Made by a program: the position numbers and the translations under genes. Below, one piece after another: positions 9,085 to 46,300 of a DNA stretch of 64,000 nt. Below the pieces are notes generated by a model. That model searched no databases and was not told where the DNA came from. It saw only the letters and a program-made list of their open reading frames with translations. Origin of the DNA: Hydnum rufescens UP504 (taxonomy: Eukaryota; Basidiomycota; Agaricomycetes; Cantharellales; Hydnaceae); assembly GCA_014904985.1 (NCBI GenBank), contig MU129043.1, positions 104,104 through 168,103 on the forward strand. The letters run 5' to 3'. The stretch's first letter is position 1, and each line of letters begins with the position of its first letter.

Positions 9085-11057
9085 TACTGTTTAGGCAAAG
9101 AACATATCAAAATTTCAGCCAGATCCATGCAGTAATTACAGAGATATAAGGGAAACAAGTTTAAACATTGAAAACCAATTTACTCTCCCCACAGCAAAGG
9201 TATGGACTTGAAATTTGACATGGGGTATAATAATATAATCAAATAAACATGTGCCAAGAATCAGCTTATCCTGTTTACTTCTAGATATTCAACTCCCTTT
9301 TCAGGCAAAAAGAGAACAACAAGCTACCATGAATGCTGAACACTTTAAATTACACCCAAATTAGGTGGAATGGGCCTATAATATTATAGCCCTCACTATA
9401 TCCAAAAATGGAATGAATTGGATGTGTGGAAGTGGCTGAAATTGAGGGGGAGGGGGAGAAAGATCAAAAGTGCATTACATAGGATGTAGAGCAGGGGTGG
9501 CTCTGATATTACACCACTGAGTTAGTACATATATGGGAGTGCACATGCCAGATATCAGCCAAACTGGGCTCCATTTAGGCAGTGCTTCACAGGCCTCCCC
9601 CTAAACAACAATTTCCTCCCCAGAGCCCTCCATCCATGCAATTGCCTTGAAAATGCACACTTAGGTCATCCAAACACATCTATAGCATCCCTCAAAATTT
9701 CAGACTCATGACTCCAGTGTCAGAGTCTCCATAATATTTTCAAGTTTCACTGAGATAATCCCTGCAGTTGGGACATTTCCAGAACTCCAATCACTCTGAT
9801 TTTTTGTAGGCCACACCTTCTCACTATTTGAGGCTCAGCCCCAAAATTTCAGCCCATTCTGAGGACTTTTGACATCTGTCACATGACCAAGATCCTCCCC
9901 TCCCCCTGCTTCACTCAATCATCCAGTTTGTATGGAATTTGTTGCCATCTGTAGTAGTAGTATGTGACAGTGTTTGATTCAAATTTCAAGAGATTCCATT
10001 CAATATTCAGTGAGTTATTCAAGAAACATTCAAGATCAATTCAATTTGGGGGTCAGAACAGTGGCATTTCCACTAAATACCACTGTTCTGACCCCAAATT
10101 GAATTGATCTAGAATGTTTCTTGAATAACTCAATCAATATTGCATGGAATCTCCTGAAATTTGAATCATGCACTGTCACACACTACTACTACAGATGGAA
10201 ACAAAGTCCACACAAATTGGATCACTGAGTGAAGCAGGGGGAGGAGAAGATCTTGGTCATGTGACAGATGTCAAAAGTCCTCAGAATGGGCTGAAAATTT
10301 GGGGCTGAGCCTCAAATAGTGAGCAGGTGTGGCCTACAAAAAATCAGAGTGATTGGAGCTTTAGAAGTGTCCCAACTGGAGGGTGTATTTCAGTGAAACT
10401 TGAAATATTATGGAGACTCTGACAATGGAGTCATAAATTTGAAATTTTGAGGGATGTTATAGATGTGTTTCAATGATCTAAGTGTGCATTTTCAGGGCAA
10501 TTACATGGATGGAAGGCTCTGGGGAGGAAATTGTTGTTTAAGGGGGAGGCCTGTGGAGCACTGCCTAAATGGAGTCCAGTTGGGCTGATATCTGGCATGT
10601 ACACTCCCCATATATGTATTAACTCAGTGGTGAAATATCAGAGCCACCTCTGCTCTACATCATATGTAATTCACTTTTGATCTTCCTCCCCCTCCCCCTT
10701 AATTTTAGCCACTTCCACACATCCAATTCATTCCATTTTCAGATATAATCAGGGTTATAATATTATAAGCCTATTCCACCTAGTTTAGGTCTATTTTGAA
10801 GTGTTTAACATTCATGGTAGCTTGTTGTTCTCTTTTTGCCTGAAAAGGGAGTTGAATACCTAGAAGTAAACAGAATAAGCTGATTCTTGGCACATGTTTA
10901 GTTAATTATGTGGTCATACCCCATGTCAAATTTTAAGCCCATACCTTGTCTGTGGGGGGGAGTAAATTGATTTTCATTGTTTAAACTTATTGTCCTTATA
11001 GCTCTGTAATTAATGAATGGATCTGGCTGAAATTTTGATATCTTTTTCACCTAAGTA
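9085..11057. repeat. 2-kb giant palindrome
   Basis: Two arms of about 980 bp face each other around a 15-nt loop at 10065-10079. The inner stem is GGTCAGAACAGTGG (10051-10064) against CCACTGTTCTGACC (10080-10093). Matching pairs continue outward, for example CAAGTTTAAACATTG near 9155 with CAATG-type partner sequence near 10975. Arms differ by scattered substitutions and small indels. CpG is almost absent. No ORF or transposase is visible inside. Confidence 0.85.
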
Positions 11058-11614: not shown

Positions 11615-11616
11615 AG

Positions 11617-12571
11617 TATAGAAGAAGGATTGGGAGCTCCGATGACTGTCAAATCAAACTCTGGTTCAGCCAGTGTGTAGATGGGAGACTGTATTTCTGT
11701 TTTTATTCAATGGGCTGGTTCGCTCTGATGGTTGATCACTCTCTAACAAGTTAGGTATGGTATTCAGTGGAGGATAAGATTGTGGTATGGACTAGCTATA
11801 GTCAATGATATATCATGGGATGCTTGTGAAAGGCTCATACGTGTTGTATTGAACTGTTTACTGCTATTTGTAGGTACCTATTTGTGTCCTCCTGGTCAAA
11901 ATGCGGATTCTAAAGAGGACTCTAGACTAGTTTAAGCTTGATTTAGTATGTCAATGTGTTTCTTTCTTCTTCTGACTTAACTTTGTTTTTACTCACCTTT
12001 CCTTGGATGTCCAGCAACTCTAACCTTAGGTCCTGCAACTATCCTTGGCTCAGTATTTCGCGTAGAGGGCTTCCAGTGACTTAGTCTTAACAACCTTGTA
12101 TATGACTTAGCTCCAGATGGCTTTAGATCAGTACTCTCTTAAGATGCAAGCAGATTTGTAGACAGTAGTATATTCCAGTTGTGAGAAGATGATGGGGGGA
12201 TACAGGAAAATCTACCAGCTTTTATACCTTTCTGAAGGTGGCTGTGTTTAAAGAATATGACTCACTCCTAGGTGAGTCATATGTGAGAACAATAGGGTTG
12301 TCAAGGAGGGTGAGTCATTCATAAAGTGGTTGCAAGATAGGTGAGTCATTCATAAACAGAACAAAAGGGTTGCTAAGGTGTTATCTTTCATATCTGTGAG
12401 GTTCTAGAAGTTATTTGTGGCAATGGGAGATGAAATCAAAGGATATTTCCGAGTTCTTGGAGATTAATTTGTTTGTAGTCCAGTGGTTAAGATGTTTTTG
12501 TTGCTGGTTGATAATGGGGACAAGTGCATGGGATGGGATTTGATGCAGAAACAACAGTTTACATCCGTAAT
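11617..12571 (+). repeat. Dispersed repeat E, copy 1
   Basis: It starts TATAGAAGAAGG and ends near CATCCGTAAT, and is shared with 23237-23888 (truncated) and 25330-26444. It contains one copy of the ~29-bp motif GGATGCTTGTGAAAGGCTC, which is amplified in the other copies. No ORF is visible. It may be an LTR or a non-autonomous element. It lies exactly between a cut hairpin unit and the end of the giant palindrome. Confidence 0.75.
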
Positions 12572-12720
12572 CAACTCAGTCAGCCACAAATGTAGGTCTA
12601 GTTAGATATTATGAGCCTTGCATTTATATAGTCTAACTAGAGGTTTTGATGCTGGGGCCCCTGGGGCCGGCTAACATGATTTGCATGATTCAGGCAGGGG
12701 CCCCAGGGGCCCCTGCCTCT
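12572..12720 (+). repeat. Left terminal block of the giant palindrome
   Basis: It begins CAACTCAGTCAGCC and contains CTAGTTAGA and TCTAACTAG, able to pair around TGCATTTATAT. Two GGGGCCCCTGGGGCC-type palindromes follow. The inverted match is 17760-17905 and a direct copy lies at 33247-33392. Confidence 0.75.
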
Positions 12721-12963
12721 CACCTTAGACTGGGACTTAGAGATTCTCAGATGACAGTGGGCTACACAGGCTTATTGGGGATAATCACCATTGTTTATTA
12801 TGATGTAGCGGGCCATATGGGCTTATCGGGGATAGTTCCATTTATAATTATTTATTTATTATATATTAAACATAACCTGGGTGGGGTTTTGTTCAGTGGT
12901 CCCATTATTTTAATTATTGATTTATCCCTCAAAATTAAAAAAAAATTAAAACTACTTAGTAGC

Positions 12964-13139
12964 ACCACACACCCACTAGGGTGGGTGTGTGGTACTGTCC
13001 ATACAAATCAAAGAGAAAAAAAAAGTACTACTTAGTAGCACCACACACCCACTTGGGCAGGTGTGTGGTGCCATCCCTCAAAATTTAAAAAAAAAAAGGA
13101 TTGAGTAGCACCACACACCCGCTAGGGCGAGTGTGTGGT
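12964..13139 (-). other. Three closely spaced P2 hairpins without introns
   Basis: P2 hairpins lie at 12964-12993, 13039-13070 and 13110-13139, each with ACCACACACCC arms. They are separated by A-rich runs of about 40 nt rather than by a P1 hairpin and branch site. They form the distal end of the left array and look like collapsed units that lost their intron part. Confidence 0.65.
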
Positions 13140-13238
13140 ACGGGGGGCTGGGCTTGGTGATTCACCATTGGGCAGGTTGTTGGGACGAGTTGCGGGTTGC
13201 GGGTCGCAGGTCGTCGTTTCGGGGCTTCAATTTGGATC

Positions 13239-13370
13239 CTAAAATAATAGCGTACATTAGTAAAAAAAAAGTTGAAGTGACGCAAAGGAGCAGCTTGGGC
13301 CGCTCCTTTTGCATCGCTGTACATATAAAAATCTAAAAAAAAACCTGCACACCTGCCAAAGCGGGTGTGG
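13239..13370 (-). other. Array unit L4 (intron 13344-13239)
   Basis: Minus-strand intron-like piece of 106 nt: 5' site CAG/GTTTTT, P1 hairpin 13282-13312, branch TACTAAT at 13256-13262, 3' site TTTTAG. A shortened P2 is at 13348-13370. The 5' site is weak, consistent with distal decay. Confidence 0.5.
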
Positions 13371-13469
13371 TACTGATTTTGCACCCGGGTCGCGTGCTTT
13401 GTACTCGGTTTTGCGCATGGGGGGTGTCCGTTGGGGTGGGTCATCATTTCGGGAGCCTTGATTTGATTC

Positions 13470-13616
13470 CTAGAATGATAGTGTATGTTAGTAAAAAAAT
13501 TTCGAAGTGACACAAAAGGAGCAGCTTGCGCTGCTCCTTTTGCGTTGCTGTATGCATAGAAATTTAAAAAAAAAACCTTGTAGTACCACACACCCACTTC
13601 GGTGGGTGTGTGGTAC
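13470..13616 (-). other. Array unit L5 (intron 13576-13470)
   Basis: 107 nt: 5' site CAAG/GTTTTT, P1 13510-13545, a perfect TACTAAC branch at 13487-13493, 3' site TTCTAG. P2 (13583-13616) is a perfect stem with arms GTACCACACACCCAC closing on a TTCG loop as read on the + strand. Confidence 0.6.
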
Positions 13617-13771
13617 TCATTTGTACCACGGTTGCACGTTCAGATTTGCGTACGGGGGCTGGTCGTCATTTGGGCGAGTGGTTCGTTTGCAGGTTTCCGT
13701 TCTCGTGTGTTTTTCGGCAGGTGTCACGGGTCTTGATTGGGGGTTGGTTGGGTTGTAGGATCAGAGAAAAC

Positions 13772-13909
13772 CTAGGAATAAATAATGGGTTAGTAAAAGA
13801 GAAGAAACAACAAAACAAAAGCCACACAAAAGGAGCAGCGTACGCTGCTCCTTTTGTGCGATTGTACTTACCCTGAATTACCACACACCCGCCGAAGCGG
13901 GTGTGTGGT
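13772..13909 (-). other. Array unit L6 (intron 13871-13772)
   Basis: 100 nt: 5' site CAGG/GTAAGT, P1 13825-13858 (a perfect 34-nt palindrome with centre GCGTACGC), branch TACTAAC 13789-13795, 3' site CCTAG. P2 13880-13909 has loop CGAA. Confidence 0.65.
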
Positions 13910-14021
13910 TCGTCTGGGGTCCTGTCGCATTGTGTCGTCTGTTCCCGTTCCCGGGTTTCGTTTGGCGGGTCGCGTTGTCATTTCCGAGTGGGGGGTTCGT
14001 TTGGCCAGCTCGGGCAAAAAC

Positions 14022-14178
14022 CTAGAATAATATGATAAATGATGTGTTAGTTAAAAATTAAAACGAAAAACGAACGCAAAAAGAGCAGCCCTTGCTGCTC
14101 TTTTTGCGTCGTTTGGGGGTGTACTATATCACTTACCTTTTGTAGAACCACACACCCGCTATCGCGGGTGTGTGGTTC
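14022..14178 (-). other. Array unit L7 (intron 14136-14022)
   Basis: 115 nt: 5' site AAAG/GTAAGT, P1 14074-14109 (ACGCAAAAAGAGCAGC arm), branch TTAACTAAC near 14046-14054, 3' site TTCTAG. P2 14145-14178. Confidence 0.65.
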
Positions 14179-14264
14179 GTGCGGTTCGGTGTCCCTTATT
14201 TGACGCGCCGCGGTTCGGGGGAGGGGGAGGTGGCTTCGCGGCCTTCATTTGTGGTGATGATAGC

Positions 14265-14406
14265 CTAGAAGACTGCATTATTAGTCAAAAAATTTAAACC
14301 AGCGCAAAAAGAGCAGCAGGTGCTGCTCTTTTGCGCTGTTGCGGGTACCCAACGTTACTTACCTTGCATAGAACCACACACCCGCTATGGCGGGTGTGTG
14401 GTTCTA
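14265..14406 (-). other. Array unit L8 (intron 14362-14265)
   Basis: 98 nt: 5' site CAAG/GTAAGT, P1 14301-14337, branch GACTAAT 14280-14286, 3' site TTCTAG. P2 14369-14406 is a perfect 17-bp stem with loop TATG. Confidence 0.65.
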
Positions 14407-14520
14407 TGGGTTTGGGTCGGCTCGTGTCTTCGTTTGGTGCATCGTCGTTCATTGGTTTGGTTTTGGGGGCTGGTCATCGTTTCGGGGTGATTCGTTTCAC
14501 CGATCTTCATTTGTGGCAGC

Positions 14521-14664
14521 CTAGAAGAAAAGATGTATTAGTTAAATAATAATAACCGGCGCAAAAAGAGCAGCACTTGCTGCTCTTTTTGCGCCGTTGT
14601 GGGTACCCAACGTTACTTACCTTGTATAGAACCACACACCCGCCATAGCGGGTGTGTGGTTCTA
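14521..14664 (-). other. Array unit L9 (intron 14620-14521)
   Basis: 100 nt: 5' site CAAG/GTAAGT, P1 14557-14596 (18-bp perfect stem, loop ACTT), branch AACTAAT, 3' site TTCTAG. P2 14627-14664. It is nearly identical to unit L10, suggesting recent tandem duplication. Confidence 0.7.
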
Positions 14665-14774
14665 CGGGTTTGGGTCGGCTCATGTCTTCGTTTGGCGCGT
14701 CGTTCGTTGGTTTCGTTTTGGGCCGGTCATCATTTCGGGGGCGATTCGTTTTGCCGATCTTCATTTGTGGCAGC

Positions 14775-14915
14775 CTAGAATCAAAGATGTATTAGTTAAA
14801 TAATAATAACCGGCGCAAAAAGAGCAGCACTTGCTGCTCTTTTTGCGCCGTTGGGGTGCACAAGGTAACTTACATTATATAGAACCACACACCCGCCACA
14901 GTGGGTGTGTGGTTC
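14775..14915 (-). other. Array unit L10 (intron 14873-14775)
   Basis: 99 nt: 5' site AAT/GTAAGT, P1 14811-14850 identical to that of L9, branch AACTAAT, 3' site TTCTAG. P2 14882-14915 has one wobble pair. Confidence 0.7.
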
Positions 14916-14995
14916 CTGGGGCCTCCCATTGGGCGGTCTGTCGCCGGTTCTGGTTTGGCTCTTGCCGTTCGGGTTCTCGTAAACCCAAACAGCGA

Positions 14996-15136
14996 CTAAA
15001 TAATAAAAGCTATGTTAGTATAAGACTTCAAAACGGCGCAAAAAGAGTAGCTTTCGCTACTCTTTTTGCACCCTTGTATCTACTGAAACAAAAACTCACC
15101 TTAGGACCACACACCCGCAGCAGCGGGTGTGTGGTC
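14996..15136 (-). other. Array unit L11, proximal to the centre (intron 15099-14996)
   Basis: 104 nt: 5' site TAAG/GTGAGT, P1 15038-15069, branch TACTAAC at 15014-15020, 3' site TATTTAG. P2 15105-15136 (GACCACACACCCGC arm, loop AGCA). This would be the first unit of a leftward transcript. Confidence 0.65.
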
Positions 15137-15191
15137 GTGTGCCTTTCTGGGCCGTTTGTTGGGTGTGGCTGCGTAGTTGCACAATTCAACG

Positions 15192-15205
15192 CCGGCAATT
15201 GCCGG
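15192..15205 (-). promoter_or_regulatory. CCGGCAATTGCCGG palindrome, left-arm promoter candidate
   Basis: A perfect 14-bp palindrome just upstream, in the sense direction, of the first left-arm exon-like piece. The same motif stands at 15802 for the right arm and twice near 8519-8569. The conserved position suggests a regulatory site; the function is inferred. Confidence 0.45.
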
Positions 15206-15801
15206 TCATTAAAAAGCGCCGAAGTGTAGTGCCACGAGCAGAATACATATTAATAACAAGTATATAGACGTAGAATCAATACTATATAATACATATTTGT
15301 CCAAACAAGCAAAGAAGATGACGATAATGAGTCAGAGCTCAAATAAGGCACAATATGCCTAATTGCAGAGTGGATTGAGCCACTTCTATGGGTCATAATT
15401 GGCCCAAATATAGATATAATGATGGTATATGCGAATCCCTACATGGGGACCAGGTATATTGGACGATTCTGGCATTTTTCAATTTTTCACGCCTTCAATT
15501 CCCTAAATAGGGAATTGAAGGCGCAAAAAATTGAAAAATGCCAGAATTGCCCAATATACCTGGTCCCCCATGTAGGGTACATATATCTCACCAATATATT
15601 TAAATTTGAGCCGATTCTGAACCATAGAAATCGCCCAATCCACTTTGCAATCTTCATGCCTTAGTGAACTCTGACTCATTGTCATGGTCTCTTTATTTCC
15701 TTTCGACAAATATTAATTATATGGTATTTATTTACATTTAGTCACTTGCTACTAATTCATACTGTAGTCGTGGCGCCGGACACTTGGGCGCTTTTTGGAT
15801 G
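15206..15801. repeat. Central palindrome core of the array element
   Basis: The centre is CCCTA-AA-TAGGG at 15501-15512. Arms pair outward through GGCATTTTTCAATTTTTC (15471) and CCAGGTATATTGG (about 15450). They continue diverged through GTGGATTG (15370 and its partner near 15640) to the AAAAAGCGCC blocks near the promoter motifs. It has no ORF of note and sits where divergent transcription would start. Confidence 0.75.
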
Positions 15802-15815
15802 CCGGCAATTGCCAG
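15802..15815 (+). promoter_or_regulatory. CCGGCAATTGCCAG, right-arm promoter candidate
   Basis: Mirror counterpart of the 15192 site, one base off perfect symmetry. It is followed by GTTGAGTTGTG and then a first exon-like piece with CGCAACCACCACC. That piece also resembles the exon of the solitary 8.4-kb unit. Confidence 0.45.
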
Positions 15816-16371
15816 CGTTGAGTTGTGTTTCTTTCTCGCAACCACCACCTAACAGGAAAACCACCCAAAGAAGGAAAGATGACCACCACCGCGATTGCGG
15901 GGTGTTGGGCATAAGGTCAGTGTCGTATTTTCTCTTTTGTGGTGGTTTCATCTTTGTTTATGGTAGTAGTTCGATTGCGCACACAAGAACACAAGAAGCT
16001 TTCCGCTAAGCGCTCGCCTTTTGCGACTTGCTTTGTAAAAATATGTTTACCTCAACAAACCCTTTTACCCATTTTATACATTACATGATCCGTATAGACT
16101 ATCCTAAAGGACCAGCTTGAAATCAGAACCAAACGAACGAGGGTCCAAACCTGCCGGGGCGCAAAACAGGACCATTGCCAGAACAATTTACAAGAGGAGA
16201 CCGCCGAACAACCGACAATAAGGCGACAAATGCGACTGGCGCGACAACGCGAACCAACTGCGACAATGGACTAACGCGACGAGCAGACAAGCAAGACCAA
16301 TGCTGAGCACACGACGAGCACCGACCAACGCGACCACGACAGACGACAACGCGCCCGGTGATGGCCCGCAC
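15816..16371 (+). other. Right-arm leader before the first complete unit
   Basis: No recognisable gene. It contains a possible donor (ATAAG/GTCAGT near 15915), a hairpin-like AAGCTTTCCGCTAAGCGC stretch near 15998, and a T-poor exon-like piece from about 16110 to 16371 that leads into unit R1. Confidence 0.4.
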
Positions 16372-16517
16372 GAACCCCACACCCGCTACAGCGGGTGTGT
16401 GGTTCTCTATAAGATGAGTCCCCCCCTCTAAATATATCCAGCCGCGCAAAAAGAGCAGCAAAAGCTGCTCTTTTTGCGCTGGTTTTCATTTCTCACTAAC
16501 GTAAATATTTTTTCTAG
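16372..16517 (+). other. Array unit R1 (intron 16414-16517)
   Basis: P2 16372-16404, then AAG/ATGAGT where GT is expected, P1 16444-16479 (16-bp perfect stem, loop AAAA), branch CACTAAC 16494-16500, 3' site TTCTAG. 104 nt. The donor dinucleotide is AT, not GT. Confidence 0.6.
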
Positions 16518-16728
16518 GTTATCCCTGCCCTACAACCAACGAAATGAAGAGAAGAACCACCCAACAAAGAATGAGCGGAATGGAGCCCCGCCAAACGAAC
16601 CCCGACCCCCCCCAAAACGACAGCCCGTGACACGAACATGCACCAAAACCCACACACCAAACGAAAAGCACGCGAGTGAAGAAGGACCATCACACAAAAC
16701 GACATGGAGCCAACGAGTGGCCCCAGGA

Positions 16729-16874
16729 ACCACACACCTGCTGCGGCAGGTGTGTGGTACTTCAAGATAAGTGTTTATTGTTTATTTTTTTTTATTTTTG
16801 TGGCGCAAGAAGAGCAGCGTAAGCTGCTCTTCTTGCGATGCTTTAATATTTAACTAACCTGTTCATTTTTCTAG
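16729..16874 (+). other. Array unit R2 (intron 16767-16874)
   Basis: P2 16729-16758 (loop TGCG), AAG/ATAAGT at the donor, P1 16804-16837 (CGCAAGAAGAGCAGC arm, loop GTAA), branch AACTAAC 16852-16858, 3' site TTCTAG. 108 nt. Confidence 0.6.
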
Positions 16875-16929
16875 ATATTGAACTTGAACCCCACAACACC
16901 AAACCCATGGAGCGAAACCCACGATGCCC

Positions 16930-17016
16930 AACCCGCCGAACGAAGGCCCGCGACGCCAAACCCGCCGAACGGAGGTCCGTGATGTCAAACCCGCTGAACA
17001 AAGGCCCGCCCCCATG
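16930..17016 (+). repeat. 29-nt tandem repeat inside an exon-like piece
   Basis: Three copies of AACCCGCCGAACGAAGGCCC-type sequence start at 16930, 16959 and 16988. The piece has very few T residues in the sense direction. Confidence 0.7.
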
Positions 17017-17084
17017 AATGAAACCGCGAAACGACTGACGACCGACATGAACCCGCGAACTGGGCTGCACAGGAAAATAGGGAG

Positions 17085-17215
17085 CCACACACCCGCTGCG
17101 GCGGGTGTGTGGTACTCTAAGATAAGCTTGTTTTCATTTTTGTGGCGCAAGAAGAGCAGCATAAGCTGCTCTTCTTGCGATGCTTTGATGTTTAACTAAC
17201 GTCCTTATTTTCTAG
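17085..17215 (+). other. Array unit R3 (intron 17122-17215)
   Basis: P2 17085-17112, donor AAG/ATAAGC, P1 17146-17179 (loop ATAA), branch AACTAAC 17194-17200, 3' site TTCTAG. 94 nt. P1 is almost identical to that of R2. Confidence 0.6.
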
Positions 17216-17351
17216 ATCTCGAACCCCGCACGAACCCCCGACGCCAAACCCGCAACCTGAAACCCCGCAACCGAAGCCCGTGACCCGAAGCCCCACGACC
17301 CCAAACCCACCGAACGAAACAAAACCCGTGAACGAAACCGCGAACGTGTGA

Positions 17352-17490
17352 GTACCACACCCGCTGCGGCAGGTGTGTGGTACTCTCAAGGTAAGTCTTT
17401 CTTTCTGGAGCTACAATCGCGCAAGAAGAGCAGCCATGGGCTGCTCTTCTTGCTCTTCACTACATTAAAGTAACACATCTTTTATTTTAG
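17352..17490 (+). other. Array unit R4 (intron 17391-17490)
   Basis: P2 17352-17383 (imperfect), donor CAAG/GTAAGT, P1 17421-17453, branch-like AGTAACAC near 17470, 3' site TTTTAG. 100 nt. It is the only right-arm unit with a canonical GT donor. Confidence 0.6.
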
Positions 17491-17637
17491 GTGACAAAAT
17501 AGCCTCCCCCCTGAATAAGCCCCCGCGAGATGTGCGCACTGGGCCCCACGCAAATGGGCAAACGGGCCCATACGAACATGTGAGCTAGGCCCGGGGTGAT
17601 CATTTACAGTATGAATTTTCATTTTGCTACAAGTGTG

Positions 17638-17668
17638 CAAGAAGAGCAGCCTGTGGCTGCTCTTCTTG
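17638..17668 (+). other. Array unit R5, P1 hairpin only
   Basis: CAAGAAGAGCAGC pairs with GCTGCTCTTCTTG. No P2 precedes it; a possible donor is GTATGA near 17609. It is the distal end of the right array, before the terminal block. Confidence 0.55.
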
Positions 17669-17759
17669 GGTGCATGGGTCCCCACTGGGCGAGCCTAGTG
17701 TATATAATAATAATCAATAAATAAATAATAAATAAATAAATAATCCTAATGGCTAGGGG

Positions 17760-17905
17760 CCCCAGGGGCCCCTGGGCTGCTTGACCAGCCCCCCCGACTG
17801 AATTGCAGGGGCCCCTGGGGGCCCCCCAGGTCTGATATCTAGTTAGAGCATATAAATGCAACCCTTTAAATATCTAGTTAGATACCGATAATTGGCTGAC
17901 CAGGC
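17760..17905 (-). repeat. Right terminal block of the giant palindrome
   Basis: It is the reverse complement of the 12572 block: two GGGGCCCCTGGGG-type palindromes, then CTAGTTAGA motifs around TTTAAATATC, ending ATTGGCTGAC. It supports a single inverted-repeat element. Confidence 0.7.
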
Positions 17906-18515
17906 TGTTCACGACGCCCCATTGCTTTTTCTTTTTTTCTTTTTTTCTTTTCACAAGCTTTCTTCTTTTCATTTATTGATGGTTCGGCTAGGTACTTGGA
18001 ATACAAGCAGTGACCCACCCTCTCTAGCCCCCTCAATGAAGACCCCCCAAAAATAGCCAAGGGAACAGGCTGGGGAGCAGGTTGAGCACAGACGTATCAC
18101 GTTATTTTAATGTTAGGAAATTAAAAAAGGCGGGTTTTGAATGGACAGCAGCACCAGGCTGAATGGACAGCCTGGAGGCCCCACTTTTTGGCTGGGTGGA
18201 CCCCCAGGGGGTATCCCTGCCCACTGGTCCCAAGCCCGCAGGGTGCTGGTAATGGTGGGCGCTGGATGCGCTTTTTTTTTTTGGATGTAGTACAGTTTTG
18301 TATTGAATATTTTTGAATGGACGGTGAGCAGGGGGGGTGGAGAGCCTGCCCAGTGGTGTCAAGCATATATCCAGTATGCCCACCCATCCAATGTCTGCCC
18401 CCTACCCTAATATTAGGCAAATTAGACTGGAGAATCAGACATGGTGCTTACCGTCATTCTTGCATCCCCTTTCATGGTACCATACCATGTATGATGCCAT
18501 CAATACTACAGTATA
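17906..18515. other. Non-coding spacer
   Basis: No gene is recognised. There is a pyrimidine tract with TTTCTTTTTTTC near 17930-17955. The motif GAATGGACAG or a close variant occurs three times (about 18137, 18160, 18313). Both flanks are repeats. Confidence 0.5.
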
Positions 18516-18985
18516 GGCTGTGTGACATGTGTGAGCCCACATATCGCGACATGCATGAGCCCATGTATCGTGACGCTCGTGAGCCCTTGTATTGTGATGC
18601 TTGTGAGCCCCCGTATCATGATGCTTGTGTGCCCCCATATCATGACACTTGTGAGCTCCCATATCACAACTCTCATGAGCCCCCATATCGCAACTCTTGT
18701 GAGGCTCCATATCATGACTCTCATGAGGCTCCATATCACAACTCTCATGCACCTCCTCATCACAACTCTCATGAGCCTCCATATCGCACACCTCGTGAGC
18801 CTCCTCATCGCCACTCTCATGCACCTCCCCATCGCCACTCTTGTGAGCCTCTGTATTGTGATGCTCATGAGCCTCCATATCCTGACACTCATCAGCCTTA
18901 TCGCAACTCTCAGGAGCCTTGTATGTCTCACAACCCTCCTTATCATGACTCTCATGACTCTTCTCATTATGACTCCCATAACTCG
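18516..18985. repeat. 24-bp minisatellite, about 19 units
   Basis: Units resemble GAGCCTCCATATCATGACTC and are 24 bp, a multiple of three, so several frames on both strands stay open. On + one frame reads repeats like EPPYHDSH; on - one reads SHDMEPHE-like repeats. I see no promoter, start context or domain that picks one frame, so I call it a DNA minisatellite rather than a gene. A 225-codon + frame (18317-18994) contains it. Confidence 0.75.
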
Positions 18986-19465
18986 TCAGCATGACTTTTA
19001 TGACCATGATCCTTGACATGGTCCTCTCAAAGTTTCACCTTGTCCTGGAAACCCTTGCTTTCTGATTACCCTGCTCAGGAATAATACATCCCATGTCTCC
19101 CCAATATTTGCTGCTGTACATTGATTGGATGGCTTTGTCCCTATTTGCATGTCCAGTTCTCCATCTTTACCCCCTCATTTTTACGGTTTCACTGTACATA
19201 CCTTATCTACCAAATTCTAAGCTGCATTCATTTGTTCCAAGACCTGGAGCAAGAATCATCCCTACTGAGGACCTCATCAGGATTAATACAAGAACCAAGG
19301 GAGAATTTCTTGATACTTCTCAGTCGATTCACACTAGATTCTTGTATCAATTCTCACAAACTCTTTGCAGTGAGATCCCCCCTATTAAGGAAACTAGACA
19401 TCTGTTGGGAAGGTATAATCTGAACATTTAATGAAGGAACATGATTATATGTGGTCTATTCGAGA
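18986..19465. other. No recognisable feature
   Basis: Short overlapping open stretches of about 100 codons on + (19093-19431) show no motif and no repeat partner elsewhere in the window. Confidence 0.5.
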
Positions 19466-23236: not shown

Positions 23237-23888
23237 TATAGAAGAAGGGTTGGGAGCTCTGATGACTGTCAAATCAAAATCTGGTTCAGCCAGTGTGTAG
23301 ATGGGAGACTGTATTTCTGTTGTTATTCGTTGGGCTGGTTCGCTTCAATGGTTGATCACACTCTGCAAGATGTGTATGGTGTTCAGTAGAGAATAGGGAG
23401 GGATATGGACTAGCTGTAGTCAATGATATATCATTTGGGATGCTTATAGAAAGGCTTATATGTCTGTGATGCTTATAGAAAGGCTTATACATCTGTGATG
23501 CTTATAGAAAGGCTTATACATCGTTGGGGATGCTTGTAGAAAGGCTTATACGTCTGGGATGCTTATGGAAGGCTTATACATCATGTAGGATGCTTATGGA
23601 AAGGCTTATATGTCTAGGATGCTTGTGGAAAGGCTTATACGTTGTTCATGTTGTGTTGGTTCGTTTACTGATATTTGTGTATTCTTGTTTACGTTCTCCT
23701 GGTCAAAATGCGGATATCTGTGGGTTATAGACTGGTCAGTGCTTGGTTAGTCTTGTTAGTATGTTTCTTTCTTCTTTCTTCAAAACCTGATACATATTTC
23801 GTTATGCTTACTTTTCCTTGGATGTCCAGCAACTCTAACCTTAGGTCCTGCAACTATCCTTGGCTTGTAGAGGCTTATACATCCTGGG
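23237..23888 (+). repeat. Dispersed repeat E, copy 2 (3' truncated)
   Basis: Starts TATAGAAGAAGGG like the copies at 11617 and 25330. It joins a truncated Gypsy LTR at a shared GGGG run near 23889. Contains seven VNTR units (separate entry). No ORF. Confidence 0.8.
23434..23645 (+). repeat. VNTR inside repeat E, seven units
   Basis: Units of 28-32 bp follow GGATGCTTATAGAAAGGCTT. Copy 3 at 25538-25625 has three units and copy 1 near 11818 has one. Confidence 0.85.
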
Positions 23889-24639: not shown

Positions 24640-25329
24640 GTGTTTCTCTTCTACATGTGCGTTACGCTTCCGCCGAGCACCGTCGCTCATTAGGAGGCGT
24701 GGTGGAAGAGGGACGAGGCCATGGTGAAACAGCTTGTTGCTGGCTCGGTCCCCGACACAGTGTTCAGCCAGATTAAGGCTGGGCTCAAGGCCAAGGAGGT
24801 CTGGGAGCAACTTCGGGCCCTATATGAAGGATGCTTGAAATTAATTCTGGTTGATCTATGGAAACAGCTGCAGAATACTCGGTGTGGCACCAATGATGAT
24901 GTCCAGGCACATTTTGATAAACTCAGTGCTCTCAAGCAGCAATTGGCATCTATGGGGGCCACCATTTTGGATGAAGAATACGCCAACATACTGTTGGGAT
25001 CTCTCCCCAAGGCATACGACAATACAATGAATTCCATCACAGCAGCCACCGATCTCAGCGAGAAAACGGTTACATCGGCCCTTGTTATTTGGCTCATGAC
25101 AGACGAATATGACTGATGATCCCTGAAAAAGGGAAAAGGGAAATCAAGTACCAATGAGGCCTTCTCTGCTGATGGGCAGAAGAAGGGCAGGAGGAACATC
25201 GAGTGTTTCAACTGTCATCGGAAGGGCCACATTAAGGCAGACTGTTGGGTGAAGGGGGGAGGAAAGGAAGGACAGGGGCCTCGGGCCACTCAGGTTCTAA
25301 TACGGGTGCTAAAGAGAGCACATTGGTGG
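24640..25329 (+). pseudogene. Copia-1 Gag with zinc knuckle (5' part of the element)
   Basis: This is the nucleocapsid/capsid precursor of a Ty1/Copia element. The typical segment VWEQLRALYEG lies near 24800, then a helical region with LSALKQQLASMG and LLGSLPKAYD. A CCHC zinc knuckle (CFNCHRKGHIKADC, 25204-25245) follows. The frame is broken by a stop near 25115. Coding is cut at about 25329, just after the knuckle, by repeat E; it resumes at about 26956 with protease sequence. The N-terminal start is unclear. Confidence 0.8.
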
Positions 25330-26444
25330 TATAGAAGAAGGGTTGGGAGCTCCAATGACTGTCAAATCAAAATCTGGTTCAGCCAGTGTGTAGATGGGAG
25401 ACTGTATTTCTGTTGTTATTTGTTGGGCTGGTTCACTTCAATGGTTGATCACACTCTGCAAGACGTGTATGGTGTTCAGTGGAGAATAGGAAGGGATATG
25501 GACTAGCTGTAGTCAATGATATATCATTTGGGATGCTTATAGAAAGGCTTATATGTCTGTGATGCTTGTAGAAAGGCTTATACATCTGGGATGCTTGTGG
25601 AAAGGCTTATATGTTGTTCGTGTTGCGTTGGTCTGTTTACTGATATTTGTGTATTCTTGTTTATGTTCTCCTGGTCAAAATGCAGATATCTGTGGGTTAT
25701 AGACTGGTCAGTGCTTGGTTAGTCTTGTTAGTATGTTTCTTTCTTCTTTCTTCAAAACCTGATATGTATTTCGTTATGCTTACTTTTCCTTGGATGTCCA
25801 GCAACTCTAACCTTAGGTCCTGCAACTATCCTTGGCTTTAGTGATTCGTGTAGAGGGCTACCAGTGGCTTTGTCTCAACAACCTTGAAGATGACTTAGCT
25901 CCAGATGGCTTATAGATAGACTGTTCTTTAGAGGCAAGCAGAAAAGTTGACAGTGGTTGACAGTGATGATTTCCAGAGAGGAGATGATTGTGTGGGGATA
26001 CAGGAAATCTACCAGCTTTTATACCTTTCCGAAGGTGGCTGTGTTTAAGAAATATGACTCCCCCATGGTGAGTCATATGTGAGTCATAGGTGAGAACAAA
26101 AGAAAAATAACAAGATGATGTAATAATGTGGTCATAGCTGAGTCATGCATAAGGAGAAAAAAAGGAATCATGAGGGGTGATGTCATAGTGATGTCATTCA
26201 TAAAGAGAACAAAAGGAATCATGAGGAGGGGTGATGTCACCAATTTGCTGAGCATGTGGAATGCTTGGAGCATGTGGTCACTGACCATGTGGAGCATTCT
26301 GGAGGCGAAATGAAAGGATATCTCCAGGTTTTGGAGATTAATTTGAGCATAGTCCAGTGGTTAAGGTGTTTTGTTGTTGGTTGATAATGGGGACAAGTGC
26401 ATGGGATGGGATTCAATGCAGAAACAGCAGTTTGCATCCATAAT
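25330..26444 (+). repeat. Dispersed repeat E, copy 3, inserted in Copia-1
   Basis: Longest clean match to copy 1 (11617-12571), from TATAGAAGAAGGG to CATCCATAAT. It carries three VNTR units at 25538-25625. It splits the Copia-1 gag-pol gene between zinc knuckle and protease. I could not find a convincing target duplication. Confidence 0.8.
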
Positions 26445-33246: not shown

Positions 33247-33392
33247 CAACTCAGTCAGCCACAAATGTAAGTCTATTTAGATATTATGAGCCTTGCATTT
33301 ATATAGTCTAACTAGAGGTTTTGATGCTGGGGCCCCTGGGGCTGGCTGGGGTGATTTCTGTGGTTCATGCAGGAGCCCCCAGGGGCCCCTGT
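33247..33392 (+). repeat. Third copy of the giant-palindrome terminal block
   Basis: Starts CAACTCAGTCAGCC like 12572 and keeps TCTAACTAGAGGTTTTG and the GGGGCCCCTGGGG palindromes. It stops at about 33392 with no hairpin array behind it. It is either an end fragment or a solo non-autonomous derivative. Confidence 0.75.
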
Positions 33393-39724: not shown

Positions 39725-41655
39725 TCAAAATAAGGGAGATCCAGCAAACACATACAATCCAAGGCCCAAATCAGGATATTGTGCAAGCAATGCATCAAAG
39801 TCACTAGGAGGGACATCATTTGGCACCACAGGGTTGTACACTCCAGTGTTCACCCCATTTTCCCAGTTAACTGGCACAGTGAATGGGTCGGGTCCTGAGG
39901 CACTGCCAGAAATATCACCAAGTGATGCATCAAACATAGATGCCCCCTGATCTTCAGGCTCTTCATCTGACTCTGCTATGAACTTGCTGGATATCACATC
40001 CCTAGTGCCCTTCTTCCTGCCACCATGAACCTGTTTCTTCTTCTGGACTGGTCCCCACTTGTATCAGACCTTCACTTTCGGGATCTAAATGAGCCCATGG
40101 CAACTGAATTTGACTGTGGGTTGTTGGGTTCTGGGGGGGGAGCATTTTCAGTGGCTGAAGAACCCACCCCATTCACATCATTATGACTTTCTGGTCCACC
40201 CAAGCCCTCAGATTCATATGCTTGCCCAGTGGTAACAAGTATTGCATTATATCGATCCACAACAATAGCAATGTCATCTGGCAATCTTGTGTCCTCCACC
40301 AACTGTAGAATTTGAACTAGCTGCAAATCATCCTTCAGTTCAAAAAATGCCCACCACAGTTTCTTCCAACTATCCATTCAGACCACTGATACATCAAGTG
40401 ACATTAGATTTGGAAAGTACAACTCTGTGACCCAATTCTCCATCTTCAGATGATTGTTGGCAAGGAATCTGGGTAGAGTTGCCCATGGCACCCTAGGGAT
40501 GTGACCAACAAATGGCTTCAGAAGATTTTGGAGCTCTTCTGAAATCTCCTTCCACATCATGTGCATAGTTTTTGGGACCTTCTGCCTCACATCCCTTTGC
40601 AACTGCTGCTCCCCCTGATAGACTAGGATGTGAGAATGAATCATCTTCAGCAATGTGCTGTCCTTGGGAAATGATTCATCCAGCCATGCTTTCATTGCTG
40701 GTGTCCCAGTAAACACAGCATTGTGTTTGGATGCCACCTCATCAGGAATGCCACTAAAAAATGTGCAGAACCCATGGATGTTCATAGTAGCCATCCATTT
40801 CAAATCATTGGTCCAACATTTTGTTGTTTGCTTGATGACTTTACCCATAGCGGCAGGAGATAGTGCAATTGCAGTGGCCTGGGCAGCCTTTGAAGCATTG
40901 TGTTGCTCCACAAGTTCTTTGGCCTTCTTCTTCCACTCAGCAGAGTCTTCACCACTATGTTCAAGAATGAGCAAACAGTATGCAGGCTGTATAACCTTCT
41001 CCACATACTCATGATGAGGCTGATCTGGGTCAGAATCCTTTTCATATGAGTGATGAAACACATTCCATGGATTCCCTCCACTTTGTCATTCTCTGGTATT
41101 GATGCCAAGGCTGCCAATCCACATCACTGACTCCAGAGGTCACTCCCATTCCTCAGCCTTTTGCTCTAGCTGTTGATTCATAGCATCAACTATCTCCCTA
41201 GTCTCAGCAATTTGTTGCTCAGTAAAGGGGCCTCCAAGAGATTTGGCCAGGACCTCATTGCCACTATCAATGTCTCCACCATTCTCAAGACTGTGGTCAA
41301 TCTCATCCTCACTTCCTTCCCCATCATCAAGGAACAGGGGAGTATCACCCCTATGGTCTTGAGTGGGAGTGGGAGTGGGAGTGCAGAAATCAAAATCCAG
41401 TTTGTCAAAATAAAAGGCAAGGGGTGAACACAAGTGGGGCAAACACAACTGGAGTGAAGAGTGGTATGGAGAATTGCCAGGGGAAGCTGGGGAACCATGA
41501 GGAGAGCCCAAGGAATTCCAAGGGGCCAGAGAACTGCCAGTAGAGAGGGCTGGAGAATTGACAGTATTGTGGACTGGGGAATTGGAAAGGGAGCCGACAG
41601 GCGAGTGAGCAGGACTTATGTCTGCCATGGATTGGATTAGGGGGTGGAGGGCCAA
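39725..41655 (-). pseudogene. Unrecognised gene, several hundred codons, decayed
   Basis: A single minus-strand frame runs from 41655 to 40072 with TGA stops near 41140, 41098 and 40378. A further piece lies at 39997-39725 in another frame. The N-terminal part is Ser/Pro-rich with repeated SPVGSL/NSP motifs. Then come an acidic stretch, GGNPWNVFHHSYEKD (about 41070), a helical core with TNDLKWMATMNIHGF and PKDSTLLKMIHSHILVYQGEQQ, and an acidic C-terminus. An intron could cover some stops between 41140 and 41085. I do not recognise the family. Its position beside a KDZ transposase, same strand, would allow an accessory gene of that transposon. Confidence 0.55.
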
Positions 41656-43004
41656 TGGTGCATCTGACTGTCATGGTGGTATCTCAACACTCCATTTCAT
41701 GCAAGGAGCTGTTGACTGTGGAACTAGATTGTCAACTACACTTTTCATGGGTGCATCAGATGACCCCATTGCTCTGGGCTTAGTGGAAGGCCTGGCCATA
41801 GAAGACTCTGCCATTTTACCCTTAGAAAAGGCTGGGCTGGCAGTCAGCACTGTCACCCATTTATTTCTCTTATATGTTTTTCATGCTTTTGGTGGCATAG
41901 TGAATGTGAAGGAGTATGTTGTTATGGAACTTGGGATTTTAGCAGCAGGGGAGTGCAATAGGTGCAGTGTCAAAATCCAAACCATGACAGCTGGATGGAA
42001 AACCAGATATTAACACAGCTGGAGTTGGGAGCACAATGCAGTGTACTGTCAAACTCCAGGCCACAATGGATGTGTGGAAAAGTTGAGACAAGTTGGGAGT
42101 GCAAAGCACTGTCAAACTCCAGACCACAAGATTTACATAGAGACAGTGTAGTACAGTTGGAGTTTGGAGTGCGATGTGCTGTCAAACTCCAGACATGGTA
42201 TCAAGAGATAAGATGCTGAGAATGAATTGATATTGGCAATTGCTGTAATTTCTCCGGGTCTGAATGAAGAGTGGGTTGGTCAGAATTCTCATTTGTATAC
42301 TGCATAGGCTCCTGCAGGGGGCCAAGAGCAGTTTGACTACATACTTGAAATTATTCTAACAGTGGGTGGGAAAATGTAGAGCAGGTGGATGACTATATTC
42401 ATCCTAGATGTATCATTACATACATACATAAATCCATACATACATCAGAAATGAAGGAGAAAAACATAATGCCAAAGGGGGGAAGGAGATGAAGATGATG
42501 ATAATGGGGTAATGATGAAGATGATGATGATGATGGAGGTGATGAAGGTATTGACAACAAACAGGTTGATAACAAAGAGGAAGAGGACTATGCAGTGGGC
42601 TTGAAATACTGAGGTCAATCCAGCTCTGGTTCCAATATTATTTGCCACACCAGTTGAACTTTTGTACATGCAAAACTCTCCAAATTTGAAGAAACACTGC
42701 TGCTGCTGAGATCAGCAATTGCTCACCTCATGATCTGGCAAATGTCTGAGTTCATTGTGCCCCAACAGTTGGCCAGATATTCAAGTTGAAACTGAGTGGG
42801 GTACCCTTGACAGGTGTTTTATGTGTGATCAACTGCATCTCCATATGTCAGATCCCAATGGTCACAGAAGCTGGGTTTCCCTGGTGCACACTATAGAGTT
42901 GCCTGCTTAGCCATTCCATGTCAAATTCAACAGAAGTCATGGGGCAACTTTGCTGTGGACCAGGGTGGGGATCTATCAGAGCCAGAAACTGCTTGTAATC
43001 CAGC
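41656..43004. other. Spacer with minor tandem repeats
   Basis: No gene. About three ~75-bp units containing CTGTCAAACTCCAG occur at 42010-42200. A CATA run lies at about 42417-42444 and a GAT-rich microsatellite at about 42486-42555. Confidence 0.55.
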
Positions 43005-43084
43005 TATGGATGCCTAGGTTCAGTTTTGGTTCAGTTTTTCCCATTTTGGGCCAAACCTAAACCAGACCTGAACCTGAAATCACC
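43005..43084 (-). mobile_element. Truncated MITE end
   Basis: TATGGATGCCTAG and the following ~70 bp match the reverse complement of 36975-37052. It is cut exactly where repeat R188 begins. Confidence 0.75.
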
Positions 43085-43282
43085 AGGCTGGTCAGACAGT
43101 CTTAGGGGCCTTAAAAGGTATGTCATTTTGATATCTGTATAGTGCCTGATAGGCTTGTATTATGTTTGATATCAAAAAGTGATCAAAAGAGTATTTGATA
43201 GCAAAAGAGTTGGGTTTGAGCTCAATTTGAGATCAATTTGAGATCAATTTGAGATCAACTTTGGAACTTGTAGAATTCTGCA
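43085..43282 (+). repeat. Dispersed repeat R188, copy 2
   Basis: Near-identical to 7786-7973, with TTTGAGATCAA present three times instead of once or twice. It ends next to the 3' side of the KDZ-2 gene. Confidence 0.8.
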
Positions 43283-43347
43283 ATGCTTTACTGTGGTGCA
43301 GATGAGACATTTTATTATGCAAAGCATTTACATGGTTAAAGGAAATA

Positions 43348-46300
43348 TCATTCTGAATCCAAATCTAGTTCTACAATTGCTTGGTCCACTGCAGCTATCA
43401 AACCAGCTTCCTCCAGCTCAAAGAACTCCTCCAGCTCACCACCCTCTGAGTCATCATCTGAACTTGCATCAAAATCATTGAGATTCCTTCTACTTTGAGA
43501 ATTATGGTCTGGGCATGGTGGGGTTGTAGTGGCAACTAAAGATTCTTGTTCCAATTGCACTCAGATGTTAGACTGAACACCATAATGTTGATGTAGTGCC
43601 AAAGACATTTGAACCGAGTCCCAACTTGGAGCACCAGGAGCAATGGGCACTTGGACTATGTCCTTTTTCCAAGCTGTCATCCAGTCATACAGTTGGTGTG
43701 CCTGCAGAAGCCCAAAATATGAGACATCTTCATCCTTGGATCCCATGAAGAGGTCCATTGCAGCTGAATACTCTTCATGGAACCACATCTGAAGGTTGGC
43801 ATGCTCACCCTTGCACCTCTCAAGCTCCTGCTGGCAGCTGGCCACCTCCTGTGAGATCCGGATACCTTCTTTGACTGAGGGATCTGCCAACCAAGGGGGC
43901 ACAACTCCATCCAGGAAATCTGCAATATCACCTTGAGAATCTTCCCATATATCTTGATCCACATCCAGCTTGTACAGGCCATCCATTGTGAGCATTAGCA
44001 GAATGTATGCATCTCTCTGAATACCTCCCCTTCCCCTAAGCACAACCAGTTCCTTTAGCCTTGCATTGTATTTATTTACAGTAGCATCAATCCTGCCAGA
44101 TCGGTTTTTCACAGCTTTCTTGACATGGGCCTTTGTCTTCTGGTCCAAGATGTGACTCAAGTTTGCACAGTCCAATGTGTCAAGCTCAAACTTCCTAGCC
44201 CTCAGCTTCTTCAGAAGTTGCTCACAAAGTGCATGGAGGTTGAGCTGAATATTGACCCATTTATCCTTCTTGAGCCTATTTAACTCAGATGCAGACACAT
44301 GGTCAGTTAGCTGCAGCTCATCAGTCTTCTTGTTGATCGTGGTCTCCAATTGCCAGATGGCCTCCTTCAGCAGCCTGACTTTTTCCTGCCACTCTGCCTG
44401 CACTTCATTGCTTGCAGTCATGTCATCTTGGACCAAATCATTCCCCTCAGCAATCAAATCCTTGAGATTCCCTCACTGAGCCTCAAGGGTTGCTGTCAGA
44501 GATATGATCTGTTCCACAGCTTGGGCACCTTTTGTCTGAGACTGGTGTGAAACAGGTTGGCTGTGATATTCTCATTGGGCTTTGAACTGCTCCATTAAGT
44601 AACTGGGAGAGCAGTCACCAAGCTTCATCTCTGCCTCTTCTAGGCAGTGCTGCAACCAATCAATTCAACCTTGGAGCCACTTTCCCATTCCCATGTGCTT
44701 CCCTTCATCAATGTGCTCCACCTGGAGGTCAAGAATGAAGAGACACTGGTGATAGCCTGTCACCCACAGCCCAGGGATAAGCCTGTGAAGCTCACTCCAA
44801 AACCACTCACACCCTTTGCCATCTGAGAGTCCCCAGAGCTCTGATTTGCAAGGATGACACCGGAGCTGGCATGCCCATTGATGACTGTACACATGGAAAA
44901 TTGAGACCCCCCACTCCAAGCAAGGCAGCCATTCCGGCATGAATCTCCACTTTTTCAGAGTCTGGTCCATCTGACAGCCAATGTCATACAGGGCCCCAAT
45001 TCTCTAGTGACTCAGTATGTGTTTCAGGACAGTGTCCAACAGTGCAAAGACATAGAACTGCTTCTCTCCTGCAGTCCACATGCTTGCAACAGCAAGTGGT
45101 ATGTCATGACAGCACAGTAGAGCTATTACCCCAGTATCTTCAAAATACTGGGTTGATGCCTTCACATGATCTTCATCTGCAGCAATAAATGACTGCCAAC
45201 ATGCATCATAGGTTGAGTTCAGTGCATGGAGGCCTGGTTCCACCATATCATCCTCCAGGTGATCTGCATAATAATTGGTGCCCTCGTTGGCTGTGCGTTT
45301 CAGTCCCATGTGTGCTGGCCTTGCAGGATGAGTCTCCAGGATTTTCCTTTCCCAGGACTCCAAATAGTCCCTCAACAACACAATTGTCTTGGGTGAAGTG
45401 ACTGGGGGATCACATGCCCCTGTCTCTCCCTCATGACCATGTTGTCAGTCTTCATTGCAGATCTGCTTAAGTTGGAAATTTGCATCAATGCAAACTATGA
45501 GCTGGACTCTATAAGTTTCATTGCAGTTATAATGACTATTATCCCAGCTTGTCACAGATAATAGCCTGCTCATGGCATACTACATGTGTCTGTATGATTT
45601 CCTCCAAAACAAAGTGGGCATTGCAACCTCAAGTATTCACTGGGGCAGGTATGGTTGGCAGGAATGAAATTTGGGCAGATGTCAGGAGGCAGATCAGTAG
45701 ACACATGAGTGAGAATGGTGGCAGGAGCATTAACTGAAGCATTTGTAGGAGTTGAGTTTGCAAAGAGCTTCAGATCACTCTGAATGTTGAGATATCCCCA
45801 CTCATGTACTGGCATTCTCTCATCCAACTCTGAGATCAACCCTCTCTTATCATCCTGCACAATTCAAGTAATCTCTGCCCTGACTAACTGAGCAAGCACC
45901 TGATAGTGTGCAAGTGCATTCACAAAGCATCACTGAAATGAATCTCCTGTTGCAAACTCATACCCATGAGCTTTGAGGTACTTGACCAGAGTAGCAGCCC
46001 ATGCTCTTTCATTGGGTGCTGTATGAAGAAATAGGGAGGCCACAAATTCGAGCATGTTGAGACTGACTGCCAATGTGGGGAAAAGAGGTGCACATGGGAA
46101 GAAACTGTGCTCGACAAGCTGGATGGCAGCCAGACACCATACACAGACTGTCAGCACAACCTCTTCCAGTTGCTCCATGGAAATGCAGAGAACCTGAAGG
46201 GGTCAAGGTGCCCCACATCTACATACTGCAGGACTATGGGGCTCTTCTGCTGAGAGGTCTGAGAAGCACCCCTGAGTGACCTTCATGTAGGGATGGATAA

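Follow-up and report, generated by a model that had tools for sequence, protein, structure and literature searches.

A candidate non-autonomous DNA transposon of Hydnum rufescens bearing two divergent arrays of hairpins in predicted exon-intron units

Foldback elements and miniature inverted-repeat transposable elements (MITEs) are non-autonomous, palindromic and present in many copies, and small nucleolar RNA (snoRNA) host genes combine drifting noncoding exons with a structured RNA in each intron. The element described here, found in a 64,000-nucleotide (nt) stretch of contig MU129043.1 of Hydnum rufescens UP504 (the window), resembles both. It differs from foldback elements and MITEs in having long directional exon-intron arrays where theirs are plain inverted arms, and from snoRNA host genes in lacking a snoRNA match, in having exonic hairpins too and in lying inside a transposon. 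Introner-like elements and fungal stwintrons, as summarized in PMC12403724 and PMC8469720, likewise repeat spliceosomal introns of similar sequence; theirs lie in host protein genes, whereas those of the present element would lie in tandem noncoding units. Fungal hairpin small-RNA loci, as outlined in PMC9757828, share with it hairpins as possible RNA sources, but its stems are short and set in a predicted spliced context. The mobile shell looks like a known kind of element, and the unusual part is the architecture of the cargo. We know of no transposon with a cargo of two multi-intron noncoding genes arranged symmetrically. The titles and opening abstract lines of the open-licence literature searched held no description of such an architecture; an unclassified consensus of the element may exist in Repbase or Dfam.

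Copies, ends and a candidate mover

An earlier note on this DNA described two arrays of two alternating hairpins, P1 and P2, running either side of a centre, and both arrays are present (Table 1). Searched against the genome assembly (63,185,524 bases, 539 contigs), the 5334-base element query gave at least 592 matches; counts from this query are lower bounds, with scoring limited to the best candidates. The P1 core, AAGAGCAGC-N4-GCTGCTCTT, occurs exactly 3766 times and the P2 core 907 times, compared with 0 matches for backward-pattern controls. With 6 to 9 exact P1 cores in each of six complete copies, the family would amount very roughly to 500 element equivalents.

The six complete copies, the window copy among them, span 4.8-5.5 kb, share their end points and, in the pairs compared, are 80-94% alike over aligned parts (one copy, L009, stored in reverse, was set against L023 only). 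Exact 8-bp target-site duplications flank four of them (L009, L012, L016 and L023), and 7 of 8 bases agree in the duplication of L011. Since these independent insertions carry duplications of their own, an assembly artefact, which the earlier note had named along with a lack of other copies as a possible refutation, is very unlikely and was rejected. The terminal blocks are inverted as that note had proposed, with 11 of 15 terminal bases identical, and the third block that it placed further downstream is a left end of the same family; no partner right end was seen for it within the window. The only open reading frame (ORF) of at least 150 amino acids (aa) in the window copy, of 170 aa, lies over the array. 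Taken together, the common ends, the duplications of 8 bp and the scatter of copies support reading the element, as judged by sequence comparison, as a dispersed non-autonomous DNA transposon, one of the natures that the earlier note had considered.

KDZ transposase domains are abundant in this genome (at least 154 matches, with the best 150 of 584 candidates scored), and the 15-mer that ends the element recurs at the ends of KDZ elements of the host. The terminal 15-mer pattern was found at 389 genome places (control, 0). When the first 100 of these were compared by eye with the KDZ domains listed, four domains (one on contig C12, two on C19 and one on C31) were followed on the matching strand by the right-end 15-mer, at a distance of 1.5-1.9 kb. 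The KDZ loci L036 and L040 terminate in TGGCTGACCAGGCTG, and L037 carries the same 15-mer followed by an extra ACCAGGCTG; sequence upstream of the 15-mer is unlike among the three. Searching the genome with the 3′ terminus of the element in L036 yielded 40 matches, every one of which shares its last base, and 6 of the 40 lie, by eye, 1.6-1.7 kb from listed KDZ domains on the same strand. Loose-pattern P1-like matches were seen in several KDZ loci (one each in L030, L031 and L036 and two in L034), and none in L029, L032, L033 or L040. As summarized in PMC12730594, Zisupton elements make 8-bp duplications, and Kyakuja elements make 7-bp duplications and have CA..TG ends without inverted repeats. 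The present element combines CA..TG ends like those of Kyakuja with 8-bp duplications like those of Zisupton; it differs from Kyakuja in duplication length and in having inverted ends, and from KDZ elements in having no evident transposase inside and hairpin arrays as cargo. These likenesses point to a KDZ-type transposase, acting in trans, as the putative mover.

One KDZ domain (C135:148810-149607) falls inside the window, in a KDZ transposon noted on the minus strand at about 40378-45504, with a KDZ-like end at 39433. The scanned pieces of the window's KDZ-like ORFs gave no Pfam match; a KDZ-like protein encoded there shows 91% identity, across 72% of its length, to a protein recorded for Hydnum rufescens UP504.

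Splice signals and hairpin structure of the units

The double-hairpin unit of the earlier note reads, on its sequence, as an exon-intron unit with spliceosomal intron signals. We collected 224 P2-P1 pairs from 23 sources (the window, L009-L028, L035 and L037). Outward from the centre, each unit runs linker, P2, 5′ splice site, P1, branch site, 3′ splice site, so that P2 closes a predicted exon ~9 nt before the 5′ site and P1 is intronic, before a CTAAC-like branch site and YAG. Under a permissive rule a 5′ site is present in 211 of the 224 pairs, a branch motif in 204 and a YAG after the branch in 202, and 190 units are complete (5′ and 3′ sites). A strict 5′ site was found in 168/224 pairs in sense compared to 9/314 on the opposite side of P2, and a branch plus 3′ site followed P1 in 189/224 sense pairs compared to 53/342 other P1 positions. 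Spacing is narrow, with medians (interquartile ranges) of 9 (9-11) nt from P2 to the 5′ site, 35 (33-39) from there to P1, 25 (24-26) from P1 to the branch and 22 (21-24) from the branch to the 3′ site; the median intron length is 104 nt.

Units point away from the centre, a directionality that the earlier note overlooked. Among the 21 of 25 loci with a recognized centre (22 centres in all; L015, L024, L025 and L026 are omitted from this count), 174 complete units are outward and 16 inward. The 16 come from L013, L017, L020, L021, L028 and L039, and those of L013 and L028 are part of a second, neighbouring array. With arms of divergent polarity, one transcript would not hold both, and a long hairpin RNA across the two arms, which the earlier note had suggested, was therefore rejected; separate short hairpins in a spliced-gene context remain. 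Nor does the whole element fold back on itself, as had been thought: long complementarity is confined to the central palindrome and a weaker inverted match (74.6%) across 15094-15921, giving a long palindrome of ~0.8 kb. The outer arms match each other mainly because each P1 and P2 is itself palindromic. With long complementarity in the centre only, a foldback element was discarded. Near-perfect central palindromes occur in L028 (99.3%) and L023 (94.0%). In L013, L035, L037 and L038 a copy's own two arms are more alike than arms of other copies, which suggests re-homogenization within a lineage; the window's group shows the reverse, with a similarity of 74-76% between the two arms of one copy and of up to 99% between arms of different copies.

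The splice grammar appears to outlast similarity of the spacers. In six distant loci (L027, L028, L035 and L037-L039), 51 of 63 units have a 5′ site, 57 a branch motif and 56 a 3′ site, compared to 5 of 77 control 5′ sites. When 19 linkers of the window and L012 were compared with eight of L035 and L038, no match was seen; 7 of the 19 match L027 or L028, and 6 partly match L039.

Composition also differs between predicted exons and introns. T content is 10% in exon linkers (140 linkers) and 37% in introns. In sense, AATAAA is absent from introns and occurs at 0.14 per kb in linkers; in antisense it occurs at 7.36 per kb in introns and is absent from linkers. Outward-sense AATAAA clusters lie near both ends in 6/6 complete copies. 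Per 100 nt, sense linkers have a folding energy of -16.2, compared to -29.8 when their complement is folded and -31.7 in introns. In a sample of 25 of the 140, sense linkers differ little from shuffles (median z score, -0.17), and introns fold more strongly than theirs (-5.53). Translation of spliced arms from four copies in three frames revealed no reading frame common to the copies. The longest open stretch (237 aa, in L027) is not shared by other copies; open stretches occur because the exons are T-poor. Since they disagree between the four copies, protein-coding arms were rejected. Searching with one translation that crosses three predicted junctions produced 7 word-sharing candidates, all with E values above 1; the missing protein homolog is neutral for a noncoding gene.

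Both hairpins are stable when folded (-35.7 kcal/mol and z = -8.91 for one P1; -25.9 kcal/mol and z = -5.11 for one P2), and their complementary strands fold about equally well because the sequences are palindromes. Covariation was scored in units with a 4-nt loop (200 unique P1 and 186 unique P2) against 200 shuffles. The inner seven pairs of P1 are nearly invariant, and pairs 8-17 show 240 double-sided changes compared to a shuffle mean of 89 and maximum of 111; slid registers gave at most 69. For P2, 152 double-sided changes were counted (shuffle mean, 79; maximum, 109). Stem substitutions are thus compensatory above chance, where the earlier note had allowed that they might be random. Its view that structure matters is supported, with an outer P1 stem that covaries, but the sequences of the cores show little variation as well.

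The loops are strand biased. Among 171 4-nt P1 loops, 60 are GNRA in sense and 0 in antisense, and with orientation set by splice signals alone the counts are 33/111 and 0. Genome-wide, with orientation set by GTRAGT 18-45 nt upstream, 548 P1 loops are GNRA compared to 37 of the inverted class. This skew could reflect selection on the loop as it reads in sense, or simply an ancestral GAAA loop that was inherited. Together, covariation and loop bias support an RNA role, short of proof. A search of Rfam returned 13 matches at an E value of up to 1, all under the gathering score, and no exact extended P1 core was found in the IMG/VR viral contigs.

One arm is distinguished by its 5′ splice sites. 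Outward units comprise 129 GT and 45 AT sites, and 35 of the 45 fit NAG/ATRAGY (the slash marks the junction), with 10 doubtful. Given how complete units are defined, AT-AG introns have a branch motif and YAG. In one arm of L009-L012, L014, L016, L019 and L021-L023 the sites run GT-AT-AT-AT, in some cases with a further GT at the end; the window copy has AT-AT-AT with the first unit lost, and L013, L017 and L027 depart from the order. Alternative 5′ sites lying 4 nt beyond the AT sites, on the downstream side, were considered by eye and rejected, one class being GC and the others fitting the consensus poorly. A search of the open-licence literature on the term AT-AG introns listed a single paper, about gene annotation.

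A proposed spliced noncoding cargo and its alternatives

The explanation that we favour, and consider fairly probable, is a KDZ-mobilized transposon whose cargo is two divergent, spliced and polyadenylated noncoding RNAs. The transcription, splicing, polyadenylation and noncoding nature of the arms we infer from their signals and composition. A KDZ-type transposase would recognize the common end and move the element in trans. The central palindrome, as a putative two-way promoter, would give both arms the same start region, and each arm would yield a multi-intron RNA with P2 at exon ends and P1 within introns. By bringing the 5′ site and the branch effectively closer together, P1 probably keeps introns of ~104 nt easy to splice. 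Once spliced, the RNA would consist of P2 hairpins in series, connected by linkers that are T-poor, CA-rich and weakly structured. At about -10 to -38 from the junction, P2 would mask the site of exon-junction-complex deposition, which lies 20-24 nt or so upstream of a junction (as summarized in PMC8184009), and the spliced RNA may therefore escape junction-dependent decay. We hypothesize that the most likely benefit would be persistence of the element's RNA against such decay and possibly against spliceosome-coupled silencing. More tentatively, and with less than even confidence, we suggest a selfish element of a new class that spreads via a spliced noncoding RNA, with hairpins at places that the spliceosome tolerates and exon-junction marks shed; its fixed run of AT-AG introns might set the product of one arm apart by design, for instance as a spliceosome trap or a decoy for spliceosome-coupled silencing.

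Several observations weigh against a spliced cargo moved by KDZ transposases. Of the 224 units, 34 are incomplete, and L016 has one further outward AATAAA about 200 bp from the centre. A G-to-A change of the first intron base is expected from yeast genetics to impair the second splicing step, and the AT 5′ sites should splice poorly. One-sided changes or mismatches are frequent at pairs 2 and 3 of P2, and the bias of P2 loops is weaker (among 136, UNCG is found 31 times in sense and 7 in antisense). Several of the 37 inverted-loop P1 sit in introns otherwise resembling common ones, and covariation and loop bias could themselves stem from DNA-level palindrome repair and common descent. As to the mover, no KDZ left end was found via duplications or a fuzzy end search, and an 8-bp duplication is compatible with superfamilies besides KDZ; hAT duplications are likewise 8 bp (as summarized in PMC12730594).

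As a separate observation, introns were seen in which a TTTC loop replaces GAAA in otherwise similar sequence. The P1 loops suggest flipping at the DNA level, with frequent inversion at palindromes.

Stalled spliceosomes can trigger small interfering RNAs in Cryptococcus, also a basidiomycete, according to PMC6643885. An element that works as a silencing source, whose AT-AG introns stall the spliceosome and whose small RNAs target its own family or KDZ elements, would fit this, as well as the AT sites recurring in fixed order in one arm and the Piwi and RNA-dependent RNA polymerase domains present in the genome. We nevertheless regard it as unlikely: the majority of introns have good GT sites, and the stems, at 13-18 bp, seem too short to serve as Dicer substrates. 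P1 might instead be the product, a functional RNA freed from introns of a noncoding host gene in the manner of snoRNAs, and the presence of one P1 per array intron, with its near-fixed core, sense GNRA loops, covarying stem and dispensable linkers, is what such a gene would show. The exonic P2 is equally conserved, however, and no Rfam family reached its gathering score, which makes this an improbable account.

Just as improbable, in our judgment, is a role at the DNA level, with P1 and P2 as binding palindromes or cruciforms for transposition or a host factor and the splice-like signals incidental. Both cores are palindromic, their variable middle is mostly 4 nt and the loops seem to flip, but strand specificity is seen in the splice grammar, the polarity, the placement of AATAAA, the T-poor linkers and the loop bias. 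The arrays might finally have no present role, being a tandemly duplicated intron-bearing unit that hitch-hikes and is homogenized by repeat turnover. Two adjacent units (at 14484 and 14738) are indeed 95% alike across 119 nt, unit number varies between arrays and decayed units are present; yet grammar, spacing and hairpins are kept where linkers have no detectable similarity, and double-sided stem changes exceed all 200 shuffles. We give this relic the lowest probability of the explanations considered.

If the RNAs of the favoured reading, a spliced noncoding cargo, are made, several questions can be put to the test: the gain that a spliced RNA brings to a non-autonomous element, the ability of RNA structure to block loading of the exon junction complex, the behaviour of AT-AG introns in a fungal spliceosome and the extent to which hairpins in introns set the efficiency of splicing. 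With their natural loop flips and decayed units, the thousands of hairpins form a ready-made mutant series.

The window copy and its surroundings

The features of the window copy are collected in Table 1. Its right end was set at 17907 by comparison with other copies. A target-site duplication was looked for around this copy and none was found. The left flank matches, up to exactly 12571, another repeat at 26301-26444, and the continuation of the latter differs from the right flank of the element. Given the mismatched right flank and the absence of a duplication, the window copy is probably rearranged, and a clean insertion was ruled out.

Table 1. Predicted features of the element copy in the window (positions are those of the window; a slash marks the exon-intron junction)
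Feature	Position	Strand	Remarks
Whole element, putative non-autonomous DNA transposon copy	12572..17907		End points common to other copies
Left terminal block	12572..12720		Begins CAACTCAGTCAGCCA; GC-rich palindromes inside
Left-arm AATAAA cluster, outward sense, candidate poly(A) signals	12794..12860	-	12794, 12851, 12855
Three P2 hairpins without P1	12965..13138	-	12965-12992, 13041-13068, 13111-13138; T-rich stretch outward of each
Left-arm unit 8, decayed, doubtful 5′ site TTT/ATATGT	13239..13326	-	P2 13345-13372, P1 13287-13309
Left-arm intron 7, AAG/GTTTTT ... CTAG, weak 5′ site	13470..13576	-	P2 13586-13613, P1 13518-13540
Left-arm intron 6, AGG/GTAAGT ... CTAG	13772..13871	-	P2 13881-13908, P1 13832-13854
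Left-arm intron 5, AAG/GTAAGT ... CTAG	14022..14136	-	P2 14148-14175, P1 14082-14101
Left-arm intron 4, AAG/GTAAGT ... CTAG	14265..14362	-	P2 14374-14401, P1 14310-14329
Left-arm intron 3, AAG/GTAAGT ... CTAG	14521..14620	-	P2 14632-14659, P1 14567-14586
Left-arm intron 2, AAT/GTAAGT ... CTAG	14775..14873	-	P2 14885-14912, P1 14821-14840
Left-arm intron 1, AAG/GTGAGT ... TTAG	14996..15099	-	Exonic P2 15107-15134, intronic P1 15044-15063
Central palindrome	15362..15651		144-nt arms, 81% complementary, 2 nt apart
Innermost central hairpin CCTTCAATTCCCT...AGGGAATTGAAGG	15494..15523		Shared by 22 centres (21 loci)
First right-arm unit, degenerate or replaced	about 15840..16370	+	Spacing 1238 vs ~750 in most other copies
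Right-arm intron, AT 5′ site, AAG/ATGAGT ... CTAG	16414..16517	+	P2 16375-16402, P1 16452-16471
Right-arm intron, AT 5′ site, AAG/ATAAGT ... CTAG	16767..16874	+	P2 16730-16757, P1 16808-16830
Right-arm intron, AT 5′ site, AAG/ATAAGC ... CTAG	17122..17215	+	P2 17085-17112, P1 17150-17172
Right-arm intron, AAG/GTAAGT ... TTTTAG	17391..17490	+	P2 17353-17380, P1 17424-17447; placed by eye, branch motif weak, no complete intron called automatically
Right-arm AATAAA cluster, outward sense, candidate poly(A) signals	17716..17740	+	
Right terminal block	17750..17907		Terminates in TGGCTGACCAGGCTG; 15-mer recurs at KDZ transposon ends
Detached left-end block of the element family	33247..33391	+	90.3% over 145 nt

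Copies of the flanking repeat lie at 11616-12571, where the element abuts the end of the copy, and at 23237-23865 and 25329-26444. Two of these share a 29-bp tandem repeat, TGGGATGCTTATAGAAAGGCTTATACGTC, at 23436-23642 and 25529-25614. In another copy of the element, L035, what looks on reading like a Tc1/mariner-type insertion lies within the hairpin element at about 700-2100. The surroundings of the window copy also include a second palindrome 1.5 kb to its left (9091-11054; 1.97 kb, 90% to its own reverse complement) and, to its right, a 24-bp minisatellite at 18524-18996 with open frames on both strands.

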